This document shows positions 39,460 to 56,610 of a DNA stretch of 64,000 bases, piece after piece (within the stretch, counting starts at the first letter, position 1; every line of letters begins with the position of its first letter). Source of the DNA: Pseudomonadota bacterium (GTDB lineage: Bacteria > Pseudomonadota > Alphaproteobacteria > UBA8366). A model generated the notes under the pieces. That model ran no database searches. It was not told where the DNA came from and was given only the letters and a program-made list of their open reading frames with translations. Location of the stretch: NCBI GenBank assembly GCA_036339585.1, contig JAYZAS010000005.1, forward strand, positions 1 to 64,000, written 5' to 3'. Both the position numbers and the translations under genes were made by a program.

Positions 39460-40194
39460 CTACTCTGTTTTTTCTGTCGAATCGGATTGAACTCCGTCAT
39501 CAATTTGACCAGCAGCTTTGTCCTCTAGGACCTCTTCGTGTGAACTACGGTCATCAGTATCCTCCCGTTTTTGCTCGTTGTCTTCATTTCCCATCGCAAG
39601 ATCTGCAGCAGCGTTTGCTTGCGCTTCGGGCTCAAACATTTCTTCTGTATTTTGTGTTGCGGATTGAGCCAATTCTTCCTCCGCATACTGTTGTTCATCC
39701 TCGCCGCTGATTATAGCGCGGCCAAGTTCTTGCTGCTGTTTAGCCTCATCTTCAGACCGAGCCACATTCACACAGACAAATGCATCAACCTCTGGATGAA
39801 GACGTATACGTATATCAAAGATGCCCAACAACTTGACTGGTCGGTCTATTACGACCTGGTTCCGAGTAATTCTAAAACCGTTATCAGACACTGAGTCGGC
39901 AATATCACGAGCATTCACAGATCCATAGAGCTGTCCTGCTTCGCCGGCACTGCGTATGATCGCAACCTGCAATCCATTCATACGATTAGCTATATCTTCC
40001 GCCTCACTTTTACGCTTCAGATTCTCCGCTTCAAGCTCTTTGCGTTGATTTTGAAAATGCTGCAGGTTAGCGTCGCTGGCTCTCAGTGCCTTTTGCCTGG
40101 GAAAGAGAAAGTTGCGGGCATACCCTGGCTTTACTGATACCACATCGCCCATTTGGCCCAAATTTTCAATACGTTCTAACAGAATAACATTCAT
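39460..40194 (-). CDS. rplI: 50S ribosomal protein L9 with acidic C-terminal extension
   Basis: A 244-residue L9. The N-terminal rRNA-binding domain is standard (MNVILLERIENLGQMGDVVSV, GYARNFLFP), and the C-terminal domain ends near residue 148 (VARSEDEA). About 95 further residues are Glu/Gln/Asp-rich and low in complexity. Typical L9 is near 150 residues. Some alphaproteobacteria have such a tail. It may be disordered. It is the third gene of rpsF-rpsR-rplI. Confidence 0.93.
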   Translation of the reverse strand: MNVILLERIENLGQMGDVVSVKPGYARNFLFPRQKALRASDANLQHFQNQRKELEAENLKRKSEAEDIANRMNGLQVAIIRSAGEAGQLYGSVNARDIADSVSDNGFRITRNQVVIDRPVKLLGIFDIRIRLHPEVDAFVCVNVARSEDEAKQQQELGRAIISGEDEQQYAEEELAQSATQNTEEMFEPEAQANAAADLAMGNEDNEQKREDTDDRSSHEEVLEDKAAGQIDDGVQSDSTEKTE

Positions 40195-40228
40195 GGGAAT
40201 CTCCTTAGTCTTAGCGTGAGGCCTTCGA

Positions 40229-40483
40229 CTAACTTAATACATACGGCATTAGGCCGAGATAGCGCGCTCTTTTTATTGCCCTTGTCAATTCACGTTGCCT
40301 CTTCGCTGAGACACCTGTTATTCTACTGGGAACAATTTTGCCTCTTTCAGAGGTAAAACGGCTCAATAGTTTAATGTCAGTATAGTCTATTTTCGGAGCA
40401 TTTGGCCCGCTGAATGGGCACGACTTTCGGCGTCTGAAAAAGGGACGTCGACCACCGTTTGCACTGGAACGCGGTGAACTCAC
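40229..40483 (-). CDS. rpsR: 30S ribosomal protein S18
   Basis: An 84-residue S18 with the usual core: [26 protein letters not shown] and [18 protein letters not shown]. It binds S6 on the platform of the small subunit. It starts just two bases after the rpsF stop, within the rpsF-rpsR-rplI operon. Confidence 0.95.
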
Positions 40484-40485
40484 TG

Positions 40486-40965
40486 TTAATTCTCCTTTTC
40501 ATCATGCGGTTCGTTTTGGTCAATATTTTCGCTTTCGTCTGAAGCAAGTTTCGCTTCATCAATCTCTGTTTGTTCAATGCCGGACACTTCTTCGGGTTTC
40601 TCTCGTTTGCTACCGCGATCAGCTCGATCCCGATCCCGATCGCCTTTTCCCTGCATTATAGGTGAAGCATCCCCCCTCAAACTCTCTAGACGGACTGTCA
40701 TAAACCGAAAAACGTCCTCGTTCAGACCCATGCTACGTTCCATTTCTTGGACGGCTTCTACGGGTGCATCCAAGTTAAAAAGGACGTAATGACCTTTGCG
40801 ATTTTTTTTGATGCGGTATGCAAGAGTGCGCAAACCCCAGTATTCCCTGCGTTCTACTGAACCTGAATTATCAGTAATAATCTTTTCAAAGCCATCAGCC
40901 AGACTATCTACCTGAGCAGCAGACACATCTTGCCTAGCGATAAAGATACTTTCGTAAAGTGGCAT
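40486..40965 (-). CDS. rpsF: 30S ribosomal protein S6
   Basis: A 159-residue S6. The core [35 protein letters not shown] and MRSMG-like [18 protein letters not shown] is standard; the last 55 residues are a charged, probably disordered tail rich in Glu, Asp, Lys and Arg, as in other alphaproteobacteria. It heads the rpsF operon and is preceded by a stable hairpin in the leader. Confidence 0.95.
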
Positions 40966-41020
40966 ACAATAAGCTCCCTGTGGTTATTTATGAGCTGGCG
41001 TCAAAACCAAGACATTCCAA

Positions 41021-41053
41021 CTCCAGACGGCAAACGTGTTTGCCGCCAAGGAG
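41021..41053 (-). promoter_or_regulatory. Stable hairpin in the rpsF operon leader
   Basis: CGGCAAACGTGTTTGCCG (41028-41045) is a perfect inverted repeat, flanked by CTCC at 41021 and GGAGG at 41051 that can extend the stem. It lies about 60 bases upstream of rpsF. S6:S18 leaders autoregulate this operon in many bacteria, but I could not confirm the S6:S18 motif here. It could also serve the divergent fabD promoter region. Confidence 0.4.
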
Positions 41054-41248
41054 GTTTCCAAACTTTCCACAGTTCAGCGTGGACAGTAAAGGTGGGAATA
41101 TACACAAATACTACCTAATCGAAAGTAAAAACTGCATTGAAGTTAATAATTAGGTTTGCTCAAATGGTAGTTTCTTGTTAGGTCGATGGAAGGGTTCATG
41201 TTTCGCAGTTTCTGCATGCGGCAATTACATACAAGAGGGTAAATTCAT

Positions 41249-42190
41249 ATGAAAAATGCTTTCGTTTTTCCCGGGCAGGGCTCTCAAGCGGTTGGGATGG
41301 GCTTTGCGCTGTCGGAAGCATTCCCCGCTGCCCGATTGGTTTTTGAGGAAGTAGACGATGCACTTGAGCAAAAGCTTTCTTCTTTGATGTTTGATGGCCC
41401 GGAAGACAAACTTATTCTTACTGAGAACGCGCAGCCGGCATTGATGGCAACGAGCATTGCCGTTATTCGTGTATTGAAGGATGAGTGTGGGATTTCCCTC
41501 ACTGAAACTGCAAAGTTTGTTGCTGGTCATTCTCTTGGTGAGTATTCAGCACTCGCAGCTGTAGATGCATTAGCTCTAGCTGACGCGGCCCGTCTCCTTA
41601 AGCAGCGTGGAATGGCTATGCAAGAGGCAGTGCCAGTCGGTGAGGGTGCGATGGCAGCCTTGTTGGGTCTCGATTTAGATGCGGCGCAGCAGGTTGCTGA
41701 TTTAGCCTCAGAGCACGGGGTCTGTGCTTGTGCGAATGATAATGCTCCGGGCCAGGTTGTTGTTAGTGGTAGCAAACAAGCGGTGGAGCTGGCTGCAGAG
41801 ATTGCAACGCAAAAAGGAGCCCGGAGGGCAGTTATGCTGCCTGTGAGTGCTCCCTTTCATTGCTCATTAATGCAGCCGGCTGCTGACACGATGGAAGAAG
41901 CCTTGAACCGAACACATATTCGGGAACCAAAAGTACCTATAATCTCCAATGTAACCGCGGCTGAAGTGACTAATCCCGATGACATAAGAACCCATTTAGT
42001 TGAGCAAGTTACAGCAATGGTTCGTTGGCGTGAGAGCGTTCTTTATATGAGGGAAAAAAATGTGGATACGTTGATTGAGATAGGTTCTGGAAAGGTTTTA
42101 TCGGGTCTTGCTCGGCGCATTTCGAGTGACTTAACTGCCAGAGCAATACAAAACCCGAATGATTTTGATAGTTTCGTAAAGGACGTTTAA
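41249..42190 (+). CDS. fabD: Malonyl-CoA:ACP transacylase
   Basis: A 313-residue enzyme that loads malonate onto ACP. FPGQGSQAVGMG is the N-terminal motif, the catalytic Ser is in GHSLGEYSAL, and the His is in PVSAPFHCSLM. A GAGGG ribosome binding site precedes the ATG. It is the first gene of fabD-fabG-acpP-fabF-mltG, divergent from rpsF. Confidence 0.95.
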   Translation: MKNAFVFPGQGSQAVGMGFALSEAFPAARLVFEEVDDALEQKLSSLMFDGPEDKLILTENAQPALMATSIAVIRVLKDECGISLTETAKFVAGHSLGEYSALAAVDALALADAARLLKQRGMAMQEAVPVGEGAMAALLGLDLDAAQQVADLASEHGVCACANDNAPGQVVVSGSKQAVELAAEIATQKGARRAVMLPVSAPFHCSLMQPAADTMEEALNRTHIREPKVPIISNVTAAEVTNPDDIRTHLVEQVTAMVRWRESVLYMREKNVDTLIEIGSGKVLSGLARRISSDLTARAIQNPNDFDSFVKDV

Positions 42191-42192
42191 GA

Positions 42193-42939
42193 ATGCCTTG
42201 TCTTTTTGACCTTTCTGGCAAAGGAGTTTTGATTACTGGCGCATCAGGCGGGATCGGTGGTGCGATTGCGCGAGGCCTTCATGGAGCAGGTGCTGAGGTC
42301 GTGCTATCGGGTACTAGAACTGATTCGTTGAATGCGCTGGCAGGCGAGCTCGGGGATAGTGCCCATGTGCTAACAGCAGGACTGGGAGTGGAGGGCGCGG
42401 AGGACCAACTTATTAAGAAAAGTATAGATGCACTTGGCTCTTTGGATATCCTTGTAAACAATGCCGGCATAACGCGAGATATGCTTAGCATGAGGCTATC
42501 CGATAAGGATTGGGAGGATGTTTTAGACATTAATCTTTCCTCAGTTTTTCGACTGTGTCGCGCCACCGTGCCGGCTATGATGAAGAAGAGATGGGGGAGG
42601 ATTATCAATATCACATCAATTGTCGGCATCACTGGAAACGCTGGACAAGCAAATTACGCTGCGTCAAAGGCAGGTATGATTGGCATGACCAAGTCGATTG
42701 CCCAGGAAGTAGCACCACGCGGGATAACAGCAAATTGTATTGCACCAGGTTTTATAGACACAGCCATGACGGAGGATCTTAGCGAAGCTATAAAAGAAAG
42801 ACTCTTAGGGGCTATTCCAGCAAAGCGCCTTGGAAAACCCGATGATATAGCTGGTGCAGCTATCTACCTCGCGAGTGACGAGTCTGCTTATCTAACAGGT
42901 CAGACACTACACATAAATGGTGGAATGGCGATGGTGTGA
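42193..42939 (+). CDS. fabG: 3-oxoacyl-ACP reductase
   Basis: A 248-residue SDR that reduces 3-oxoacyl-ACP with NADPH. TGASGGIG, NNAGITRDML, ITSIVGITGNAGQ and YAASK are all present, and the C terminus GQTLHINGGMAM is typical. It starts two bases after fabD, in the fatty-acid operon, which supports the FabG role over other SDRs. Confidence 0.94.
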   Translation: MPCLFDLSGKGVLITGASGGIGGAIARGLHGAGAEVVLSGTRTDSLNALAGELGDSAHVLTAGLGVEGAEDQLIKKSIDALGSLDILVNNAGITRDMLSMRLSDKDWEDVLDINLSSVFRLCRATVPAMMKKRWGRIINITSIVGITGNAGQANYAASKAGMIGMTKSIAQEVAPRGITANCIAPGFIDTAMTEDLSEAIKERLLGAIPAKRLGKPDDIAGAAIYLASDESAYLTGQTLHINGGMAMV

Positions 42940-43106
42940 AAAAGAAGTGACTTTAGTTGTAATTTCTGGGTGTTGGCAATTAAAAGGGAATCGTGATAGG
43001 ACACGCCCGGTATCATTTAGGGCATCAATTAAAGAGGCAATCTCACTGTTGATGCGGCGATTGTAAGTAGTTTCGTTTTGCAACTTTTGAGAAGGAATTT
43101 TCGATT

Positions 43107-43343
43107 ATGAGTGACGTTGCCGACCGCGTGAAGCAAATCGTTGTGGAGCATTTGGGCGTGGATGAAGCCAAGGTAACCGTTAATGCGAGCTTTATTGATG
43201 ATCTCGGTGCTGACAGCTTGGATACGGTTGAGCTGGTGATGGCTTTTGAGGAGGAATTCGGTTGTGAAATACCTGATAACGCAGCTGAAAAAATTCTTAC
43301 CGTAGAAGATGCCATTGGGTTCATTGAAGAGCAATCTTCATAA
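43107..43343 (+). CDS. acpP: Acyl carrier protein
   Basis: A 78-residue acidic carrier with the phosphopantetheine site [10 protein letters not shown] (Ser in DSLD). Length and helix pattern are standard. GAGAAGG precedes the ATG. The 167-base gap after fabG suggests a separate promoter, as is common for acpP, which is highly expressed. Confidence 0.96.
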
Positions 43344-43395: not shown

Positions 43396-44658
43396 ATGAG
43401 ACGGGTTGTAGTTACCGGGCTTGGGCTAGTGTGCCCTTTAGGGCTTGGTGTGGATTTTGTGTGGCGAAAGTTGGTAGCCGGGAAATCCGGTATAACTCGC
43501 ATTAACAACTTTGATACGTCCGATTTAAACTGTAAAATTGCGGGCCAGGCACCTTTTGGTCCTTCTGAGACTGGTGGGTTTAATCCGGATGAGTGGGTCC
43601 AACCCAAAGACCAAAAGAAAATGGACCGGTTCATTGTTTGCGCGGTAGCGGCTGCTGCCGAGGCGGTTTCGGATGCTGGATGGACGCCGACAGAACAATC
43701 GGCGCTGGATCGTACTGGAGTATTAATTGGTTCTGGCATCGGTGGTTTGCCGGGAATTGCTGAAACAGCTGTCACGTTGCACGAACGTGGACCTCGCCGA
43801 GTTAGCCCGTTTTTCATAGCGTCGGACCTAATCAATTTAGCATCGGGTCAGGTATCGATAAGATTTGGATTTCGTGGACCGAACCATTCAGTAGTTACGG
43901 CTTGTGCTTCTGGAGCTCATGCCATAGGCGACGCCGCTCGCATGATCATGTGGGACGATGCAGACGTCATGCTTGCGGGTGGCGCAGAGTCGACAGTATG
44001 CCGCATTGGTATTGCGGGGTTCTCGGCTTCAAGGGCTCTCTCAACTGAATTTAATGACACTCCCGAGGCCGCATCACGACCGTGGGACATAGACCGCGAT
44101 GGGTTCGTAATGGGCGAAGGTGCAGGTGTTTTGGTGCTGGAAGAACTGGGACATGCTAAAGCACGAGGTGCACAAATCTATGCAGAATTAACTGGTTACG
44201 GGATGTCTGGTGATGCTCATCACATTACGGCACCGGCACCTGATGGCAATGGTGCTTTTCGGGCTATGCAGACGGCATTGAAGCGTTCCAAACTTAATCC
44301 CGAAGATGTGGATTATATAAACGCTCACGGAACATCGACGCCACTTGGTGATGAGATAGAGGTAGGTGCTGTAAAAAAACTTTTTGGTGCTGCTGCATAC
44401 GATCTTTCGATGTCGTCAACCAAATCGGCGATAGGGCACTTGTTGGGAGCAGCGGGTGCTGCAGAGGCTGTATTTTGCATCAAAGCTCTTACTGAGGGAG
44501 TTTGTCCACCAACACTCAACTTAGATACCCCATCCGATGGTTGCGACATTGATTTAGTGCCACACCAGGCAAAGGAGCGGCCTATTGAAAATGTAATGTC
44601 AAACTCCTTTGGCTTCGGAGGAACTAACGCATCTTTAATCCTATCAAATAAGCCGTGA
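43396..44658 (+). CDS. fabF: 3-oxoacyl-ACP synthase II
   Basis: A 420-residue condensing enzyme that elongates acyl-ACP with malonyl-ACP. The catalytic Cys is in TACASGAHAIG, and the two His are in NAHGTSTPLGD and KSAIGHLLGAAGA. The end NSFGFGGTNASLIL is typical. It follows acpP by 52 bases and overlaps mltG by four. Confidence 0.95.
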   Translation: MRRVVVTGLGLVCPLGLGVDFVWRKLVAGKSGITRINNFDTSDLNCKIAGQAPFGPSETGGFNPDEWVQPKDQKKMDRFIVCAVAAAAEAVSDAGWTPTEQSALDRTGVLIGSGIGGLPGIAETAVTLHERGPRRVSPFFIASDLINLASGQVSIRFGFRGPNHSVVTACASGAHAIGDAARMIMWDDADVMLAGGAESTVCRIGIAGFSASRALSTEFNDTPEAASRPWDIDRDGFVMGEGAGVLVLEELGHAKARGAQIYAELTGYGMSGDAHHITAPAPDGNGAFRAMQTALKRSKLNPEDVDYINAHGTSTPLGDEIEVGAVKKLFGAAAYDLSMSSTKSAIGHLLGAAGAAEAVFCIKALTEGVCPPTLNLDTPSDGCDIDLVPHQAKERPIENVMSNSFGFGGTNASLILSNKP

Positions 44659-56269: not shown

Positions 56270-56394
56270 ATTATTCTCTCTTTACCTGACGAGTTTGGCA
56301 CGATATTAACATTAATAGAAACTTTACGATAGAAGTATGGTTTCTCCGGCGGAATATGTTTAGCGTCTCACATTTACTGAATAGGGGTTGGCAC

Positions 56395-56610
56395 TTGAAA
56401 GTCTTAATAGTTTTCTGTAATTCCTGAGGTTATGACCGAGAGGCTTTCCGTGTGAGAGACTATCTAACTGAAAAATTCGAAGCTGATGTTTCATTGCAAG
56501 AAGGTACCGGTGGCATCTTCGATGTGTTTGTTGACCAAGAATTGCGTTTTAGTATTTTTAAAACCGGTTGTTTTCCGACTGAGAAACATTTAAATGCGCT
56601 GGGTTTATAA
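56395..56610 (+). CDS. SelW/Rdx-like selenoprotein with in-frame UGA (Sec11)
   Basis: This gene is only seen when TGA at 56425-56427 is read as selenocysteine. From the TTG at 56395 the product is 71 residues: MKVLIVFCNS-U-GYDREAF, then EGTGGIFDVFVD and KTGCFPTE. CxxU (Cys8, Sec11) followed by GY is the redox motif of SelW, and the GTGGIFDV and TGxFP stretches are shared with bacterial Rdx/SelW-like proteins. AGGGG (56383-56387) sits seven bases before the TTG. The next stop is TAA at 56608. The protein is a thioredoxin-fold redox partner of unknown substrate. It lies alone between prpD and an SDR. A real broken gene is the alternative, but the downstream hairpin argues against it. No selA, selB, selC or selD is in the window. 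Confidence 0.8.
56438..56464 (+). promoter_or_regulatory. Candidate bacterial SECIS hairpin
   Basis: CTTTC (56444-56448) pairs with GAGAG (56454-56458; one U-G pair), loop CGUGU. The stem extends outward with G-C, A-U, A-U and G-C pairs separated by two G-A mismatches down to 56438 and 56464. The loop begins 21 bases after the UGA and has G as its second base. Both fit the published bSECIS rules (loop 16-37 bases from UGA, G in the first two loop positions). Confidence 0.65.

Follow-up and report, generated by a model that had tools for sequence, protein, structure and literature searches.

Insertion of selenocysteine (Sec) by the SelA, SelB, SelC and SelD system is established biology in Escherichia coli, and in eukaryotic selenoproteins the SECIS element lies in the 3'-UTR. 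SelW-like proteins formed the most abundant selenoprotein family both in the Sargasso Sea, with 48 genes (PMC1088965), and in the GOS data, with 427 genes (PMC2398784), and annotation is known to miss SelW genes (PMC4607533). A survey of 2006 found no selenoprotein other than formate dehydrogenase alpha (FdhA) in Sec-decoding Alphaproteobacteria (PMC1794560).

Here we examine a 64,000-nucleotide stretch of alphaproteobacterial DNA (the window), for which an earlier note had proposed a hidden SelW-like selenoprotein gene, pointing rightly to such proteins in marine metagenomes (PMC1088965, PMC2398784). Our analysis leaves little doubt that positions 56395-56610 are an alphaproteobacterial SelW-like (Rdx family) selenoprotein gene, in which the UGA at codon 11 would be read as Sec.

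Reading frame and translation start

The gene lies on the forward strand (56395..56610), with a TTG start and a TAA stop at 56608-56610. With TGA read as U it translates to the 71 residues LKVLIVFCNSUGYDREAFRVRDYLTEKFEADVSLQEGTGGIFDVFVDQELRFSIFKTGCFPTEKHLNALGL*, which contain the segments CNSUGY and EGTGGIFDV that the earlier note had described. The Sec codon (56425..56427, forward strand) is the sole in-frame TGA and is TGA in 27/27 of the distinct TGA-form sequences aligned. It closes the CxxU redox motif C8-N9-S10-U11 seen in the translation (56416..56427, forward strand), and across the 27 aligned proteins the C8 and U11 columns hold nothing but C or U. Standard-code ORF calling misses the gene, listing no product of at least 60 aa in its frame at 56395-56610. 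This would also be expected if the UGA were a genuine stop, with one half being a short leader and the other an independent downstream ORF. We consider that very improbable, because the two halves form one SelW domain with one fold and the UGA itself is the catalytic residue.

Reading the frame as one gene, the start is preceded by AGGGG (56383..56387, forward strand), a probable Shine-Dalgarno sequence 7 nt 5' of the TTG at 56395, again in agreement with what had been described. The nearest relative, L022, likewise has AGGG 5' of a TTG. The TTG lines up with the ATG of relatives, and the MK- start of many TGA forms in the order matches TTG-K in the window, although TTG is a weaker start than the ATG of the relatives. 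An upstream in-frame ATG at 56356 was considered as the start and rejected, the frame being shifted upstream in L022.

In the whole window, seven frames overlap little with other genes and have an internal TGA flanked by at least 8 and at least 45 sense codons. Judged by eye, only the SelW-like gene among them resembles one protein split by TGA; four others look like the usual beginnings or ends of genes, and the other two, both short, belong to no recognisable family. A consensus scan of the SelW-like gene gave no clear sigma-70 promoter or terminator, with nothing above chance. The 1.5-5 kb flanks of relatives contained no conserved operon partner. The neighbouring MmgE/PrpD, SDR and YicC genes recur within these flanks only in L022, L035 and L036, all of the same family, and YicC alone is co-directional with the SelW-like gene. 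Since these neighbours are mostly not co-directional and are found only in the same family, they indicate no functional link.

Family assignment and fold

Searching the product against the SelW/Rdx families, with C in place of U, gave matches above the cut-offs for both PF10262 (Rdx; 52.1 bits against 22.6) and TIGR02174 (CXXU_selWTH; 38.5 bits against 34.2). When the whole genome was searched in all six frames, exactly one Rdx place was returned, which is the SelW-like gene with its one internal TGA. An AlphaFold2 model, computed from an alignment of the window and relative sequences, has a mean pLDDT of 97.6 and the thioredoxin-like SelW fold. It places the CxxU motif close to the N terminus, following the first strand (E2-8) and ahead of a helix (14-28). 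When the model was compared with the PDB, the top 23 matches were all SelW-family structures, ahead of thioredoxins; 2fa8, 3dex and 2obk were the best, and mouse SelW (2npb), 2oka and 2p0g were also matched. The profile scores, the CxxU motif and the predicted fold together place the 71-residue product in the SelW/Rdx family. The product is most likely a small thiol/selenol oxidoreductase: the CxxU motif suggests a redox function, and the partner may be glutathione, a reported interactor of SelW (PMC1088965).

Conservation of the UGA codon and exchange with cysteine

The UGA is kept at the same codon in 27 distinct genomic sequences, that of the window among them. Of the 43 genomes in the order, 17 hold an Rdx family member. 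Exactly one in-frame TGA is present in 16 of these 17 genes, with CxxU at the same place and mostly as Y-C-x-x-U-(N/G)-Y; the 17th (G004) has no stop and is a Cys form. SelA occurs in 16/16 of the TGA-form genomes and is absent from the Cys-form genome. At class level, 385 genomes were sampled, of which 28 carry a TGA form and 18 carry a form without TGA, and strong SelA matches were found in 27/28 and 2/18 of these, respectively (Fisher p = 2.5e-9, with counts that treat genomes as independent though some are related). The lone TGA-form genome without SelA in this sample is 77% complete. Across the class, the TGA form of SelW goes together with the Sec machinery. Separately, one strong Rdx match in a genome with SelA (L057, G377:C179:1227-1448) has an internal TAA and is possibly a pseudogene or an error.

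These data bear on whether the window gene is a Cys-form Rdx in which a Cys codon (TGC/TGT) was mutated or misread to TGA, as a pseudogene or a sequencing error. Cys forms of the family do occur in the class and TGC differs from TGA by one base, yet the TGA is kept in the 27 distinct sequences, which come from different genera and families and whose flanks are still coding, and the TGA form and selA co-occur. The nearest relative, a same-genus MAG of an uncultured Rhodospirillaceae (L022), is 85-86% identical, and Sec-form relatives outside the genus are 35-48% identical to the window protein. Over the gene, pN is 0.067 and pS is 0.216 between the window and L022, which indicates purifying selection on the frame. 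Conservation across independent genomes already refutes a pseudogene or error, to which we give next to no credence; the codon at 56425, which the earlier note had left open to a check of reads, is not a read error.

Both Cys homologues and Sec (UGA) homologues align at U11, and all non-TGA forms checked have Cys (TGC/TGT) at this position. The frame would be open under any code that reads TGA as a residue, so decoding as tryptophan or plain suppression of the UGA has to be weighed against Sec. The homologous residue in the non-TGA forms checked is Cys and not Trp, and the gene of L024 ends with TGA where its relatives end, which speaks for a stop function of UGA outside the SECIS context. Together with the tRNA-Sec, SelB and covarying SECIS described below, this makes tryptophan or suppression highly unlikely and argues for Sec. 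The L024 gene (G022) uses TGA at the Sec position and again for termination, a double use that offers a built-in natural control for SECIS-dependent recoding.

The SECIS hairpin

A candidate apical hairpin of a bacterial SECIS lies at 56444..56458 on the forward strand (CUUUC-CGUGU-GAGAG), with the stem halves CUUUC at 56444-56448 and GAGAG at 56454-56458, the loop CGUGU at 56449-56453, and G at loop position 2. The start of the loop is separated from the UGA by 21 nt, and one of the five pairs in the window is G-U. The hairpin and its spacing had been noted correctly, but the claim that they are a strong independent signal from the sequence alone did not hold: a single-sequence fold of 56420-56475 was no better than shuffles (z = 0.38). 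An Rfam scan of the SelW-like gene region gave no match to a SECIS family.

It is covariation across relatives that turns the SECIS into a strong signal. Over the 27 distinct sequences, the five stem pairs are formed in 99.3% of pair cells, whereas control partners slid by 1-3 columns reach only 35-67%. In 14 cells both sides of the stem have changed, compared with a mean of 3.1 after shuffling (0/500 shuffles); one pair occurs as C-G, U-A or G-C and another as U-A or G-C. The loop is CGUGY in 26/27 of the relatives' sequences, the exception being CGUAC. In L068-L070, an Arg to Ser exchange (AGG to AGC) is accompanied by a synonymous GCC to GCG change and the stem is kept as CGCUC/GAGCG, a paired change that protein constraint alone would not explain. 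Synonymous changes between the window and L022 in the SECIS codons (1 in 9.3 sites, against 7 in 30.7) are suggestive of a depression, with too few changes to use. We therefore accept the hairpin as real because it is kept and covaries in relatives, and not from its single-sequence stability. The predicted element has what characterises a bacterial SECIS, a hairpin just 3' of the UGA whose small apical loop contains a G.

Selenocysteine machinery of the host

The earlier note had implied that the host makes Sec, and its genome (an assembly of 2.79 Mb in 25 contigs with a completeness of 100) indeed contains selA, selB, tRNA-Sec and selD. The first three lie in a row on contig C10: selA at 40133-41248 (profile match 513.6 bits), selB at 41303-43189 (442.9 bits, with SelB-specific winged helices) and the tRNA-Sec gene selC at 43428-43520 (69.8 bits against a gathering threshold of 47). 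The selD gene encodes an Ndh-SelD fusion of 754 aa (L041:2252-4516, contig C18) with a SelD match of 311 bits and a CxxC in the SelD domain. The fusion passes the selD family TIGR00476 and scores 502.6 bits with TIGR04369 ('fusion_not_SelD'), below the cut-off of 700. Aquatic bacteria are known to have Ndh-SelD fusions that contain CxxC (PMC2398784). With selA, selB, selC and selD all in the genome, the host has the Sec-decoding trait. Of the three conditions that the earlier note had named as refuting it, none was borne out, as far as they could be checked.

Sec insertion at codon 11 would follow from the parts found here combined with the biology of the E. coli system. SelA would charge tRNA-Sec using selenophosphate from the Ndh-SelD fusion. 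A ribosome meeting the UGA at codon 11 would encounter SelB bound to the SECIS hairpin just downstream, and SelB would deliver Sec-tRNA-Sec at the UGA. The expected product is a 71-residue protein of thioredoxin-like fold with the C8-x-x-U11 redox motif at the end of its first strand.

UGSC-family genes in the host genome

The host genome also contains four genes with in-frame TGA of the known UGSC family. One of them (L075; L040:13297-13863, contig C10:45296-45862) lies about 1.8 kb downstream of tRNA-Sec and has one in-frame TGA, followed by a hairpin at -14.4 kcal/mol; it matches PF24696 with 174 bits and NF041046 with 150 bits. A second (L076, C5:101083-101577, minus strand), with the sequence IESLADUGSCTSC and one in-frame TGA, lies outside the window, though on the same contig. 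The other two (L077 and L078, C1:130117-130575 and 131887-132327, minus strand) are neighbouring paralogues in which a UGSC-like domain with in-frame TGA, carrying the Sec motifs AAUGRC and AAUGNC, respectively, is fused to a domain of about 380 aa. The latter, searched in L078 only, had no Pfam or NCBIfam match. On C10, the UGSC gene is immediately preceded by a stand-alone relative of this domain, 30% identical over 329 aa, and the fusion and this gene order point to UGSC and the 380-aa domain as a functional pair. L077 and L078 may be the UGSC/Unknown_1 fusion described in PMC2398784, for which they are candidates.

No FdhA over the family cut-off was found in the host genome. Whether this is a lineage with the whole Sec machinery but no such FdhA, in which Sec decoding would be kept for SelW and several UGSC proteins, is, in our judgement, evenly balanced.

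Comparison with known systems

The gene's family is the commonest one known among the selenoproteins of marine bacteria. With the SelW-like selenoproteins of marine metagenomes (PF10262/TIGR02174; PMC1088965, PMC2398784) it shares CxxU, the in-frame UGA, the small Trx-like domain and a bacterial SECIS with a G in the small apical loop. Nothing essential differs, and the window gene is a divergent member with a TTG start. The SelW-like gene leaves the understanding of selenoproteins unchanged; what it contributes is a well-supported gene overlooked by standard ORF calling, in a host that carries the Sec-decoding machinery. Mildly of note is that this host has SelW and four TGA-containing UGSC-family genes with no FdhA over the cut-off, compared with the survey in PMC1794560.

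The Cys-form SelW-related structures 2fa8, 2obk, 2oka, 3dex and 2p0g have the same fold as the model (TM 0.85-0.90 by query for most chains). As aligned, 2fa8 and 3dex have CxxC where the window protein has CxxU, and, relative to the window protein, the aligned Cys forms have three additional residues following the first helix. Mouse SelW (2npb) and MIEN1/C17orf37 (2ljk) share the fold and the position of the redox motif with the window protein but, unlike it, are eukaryotic.
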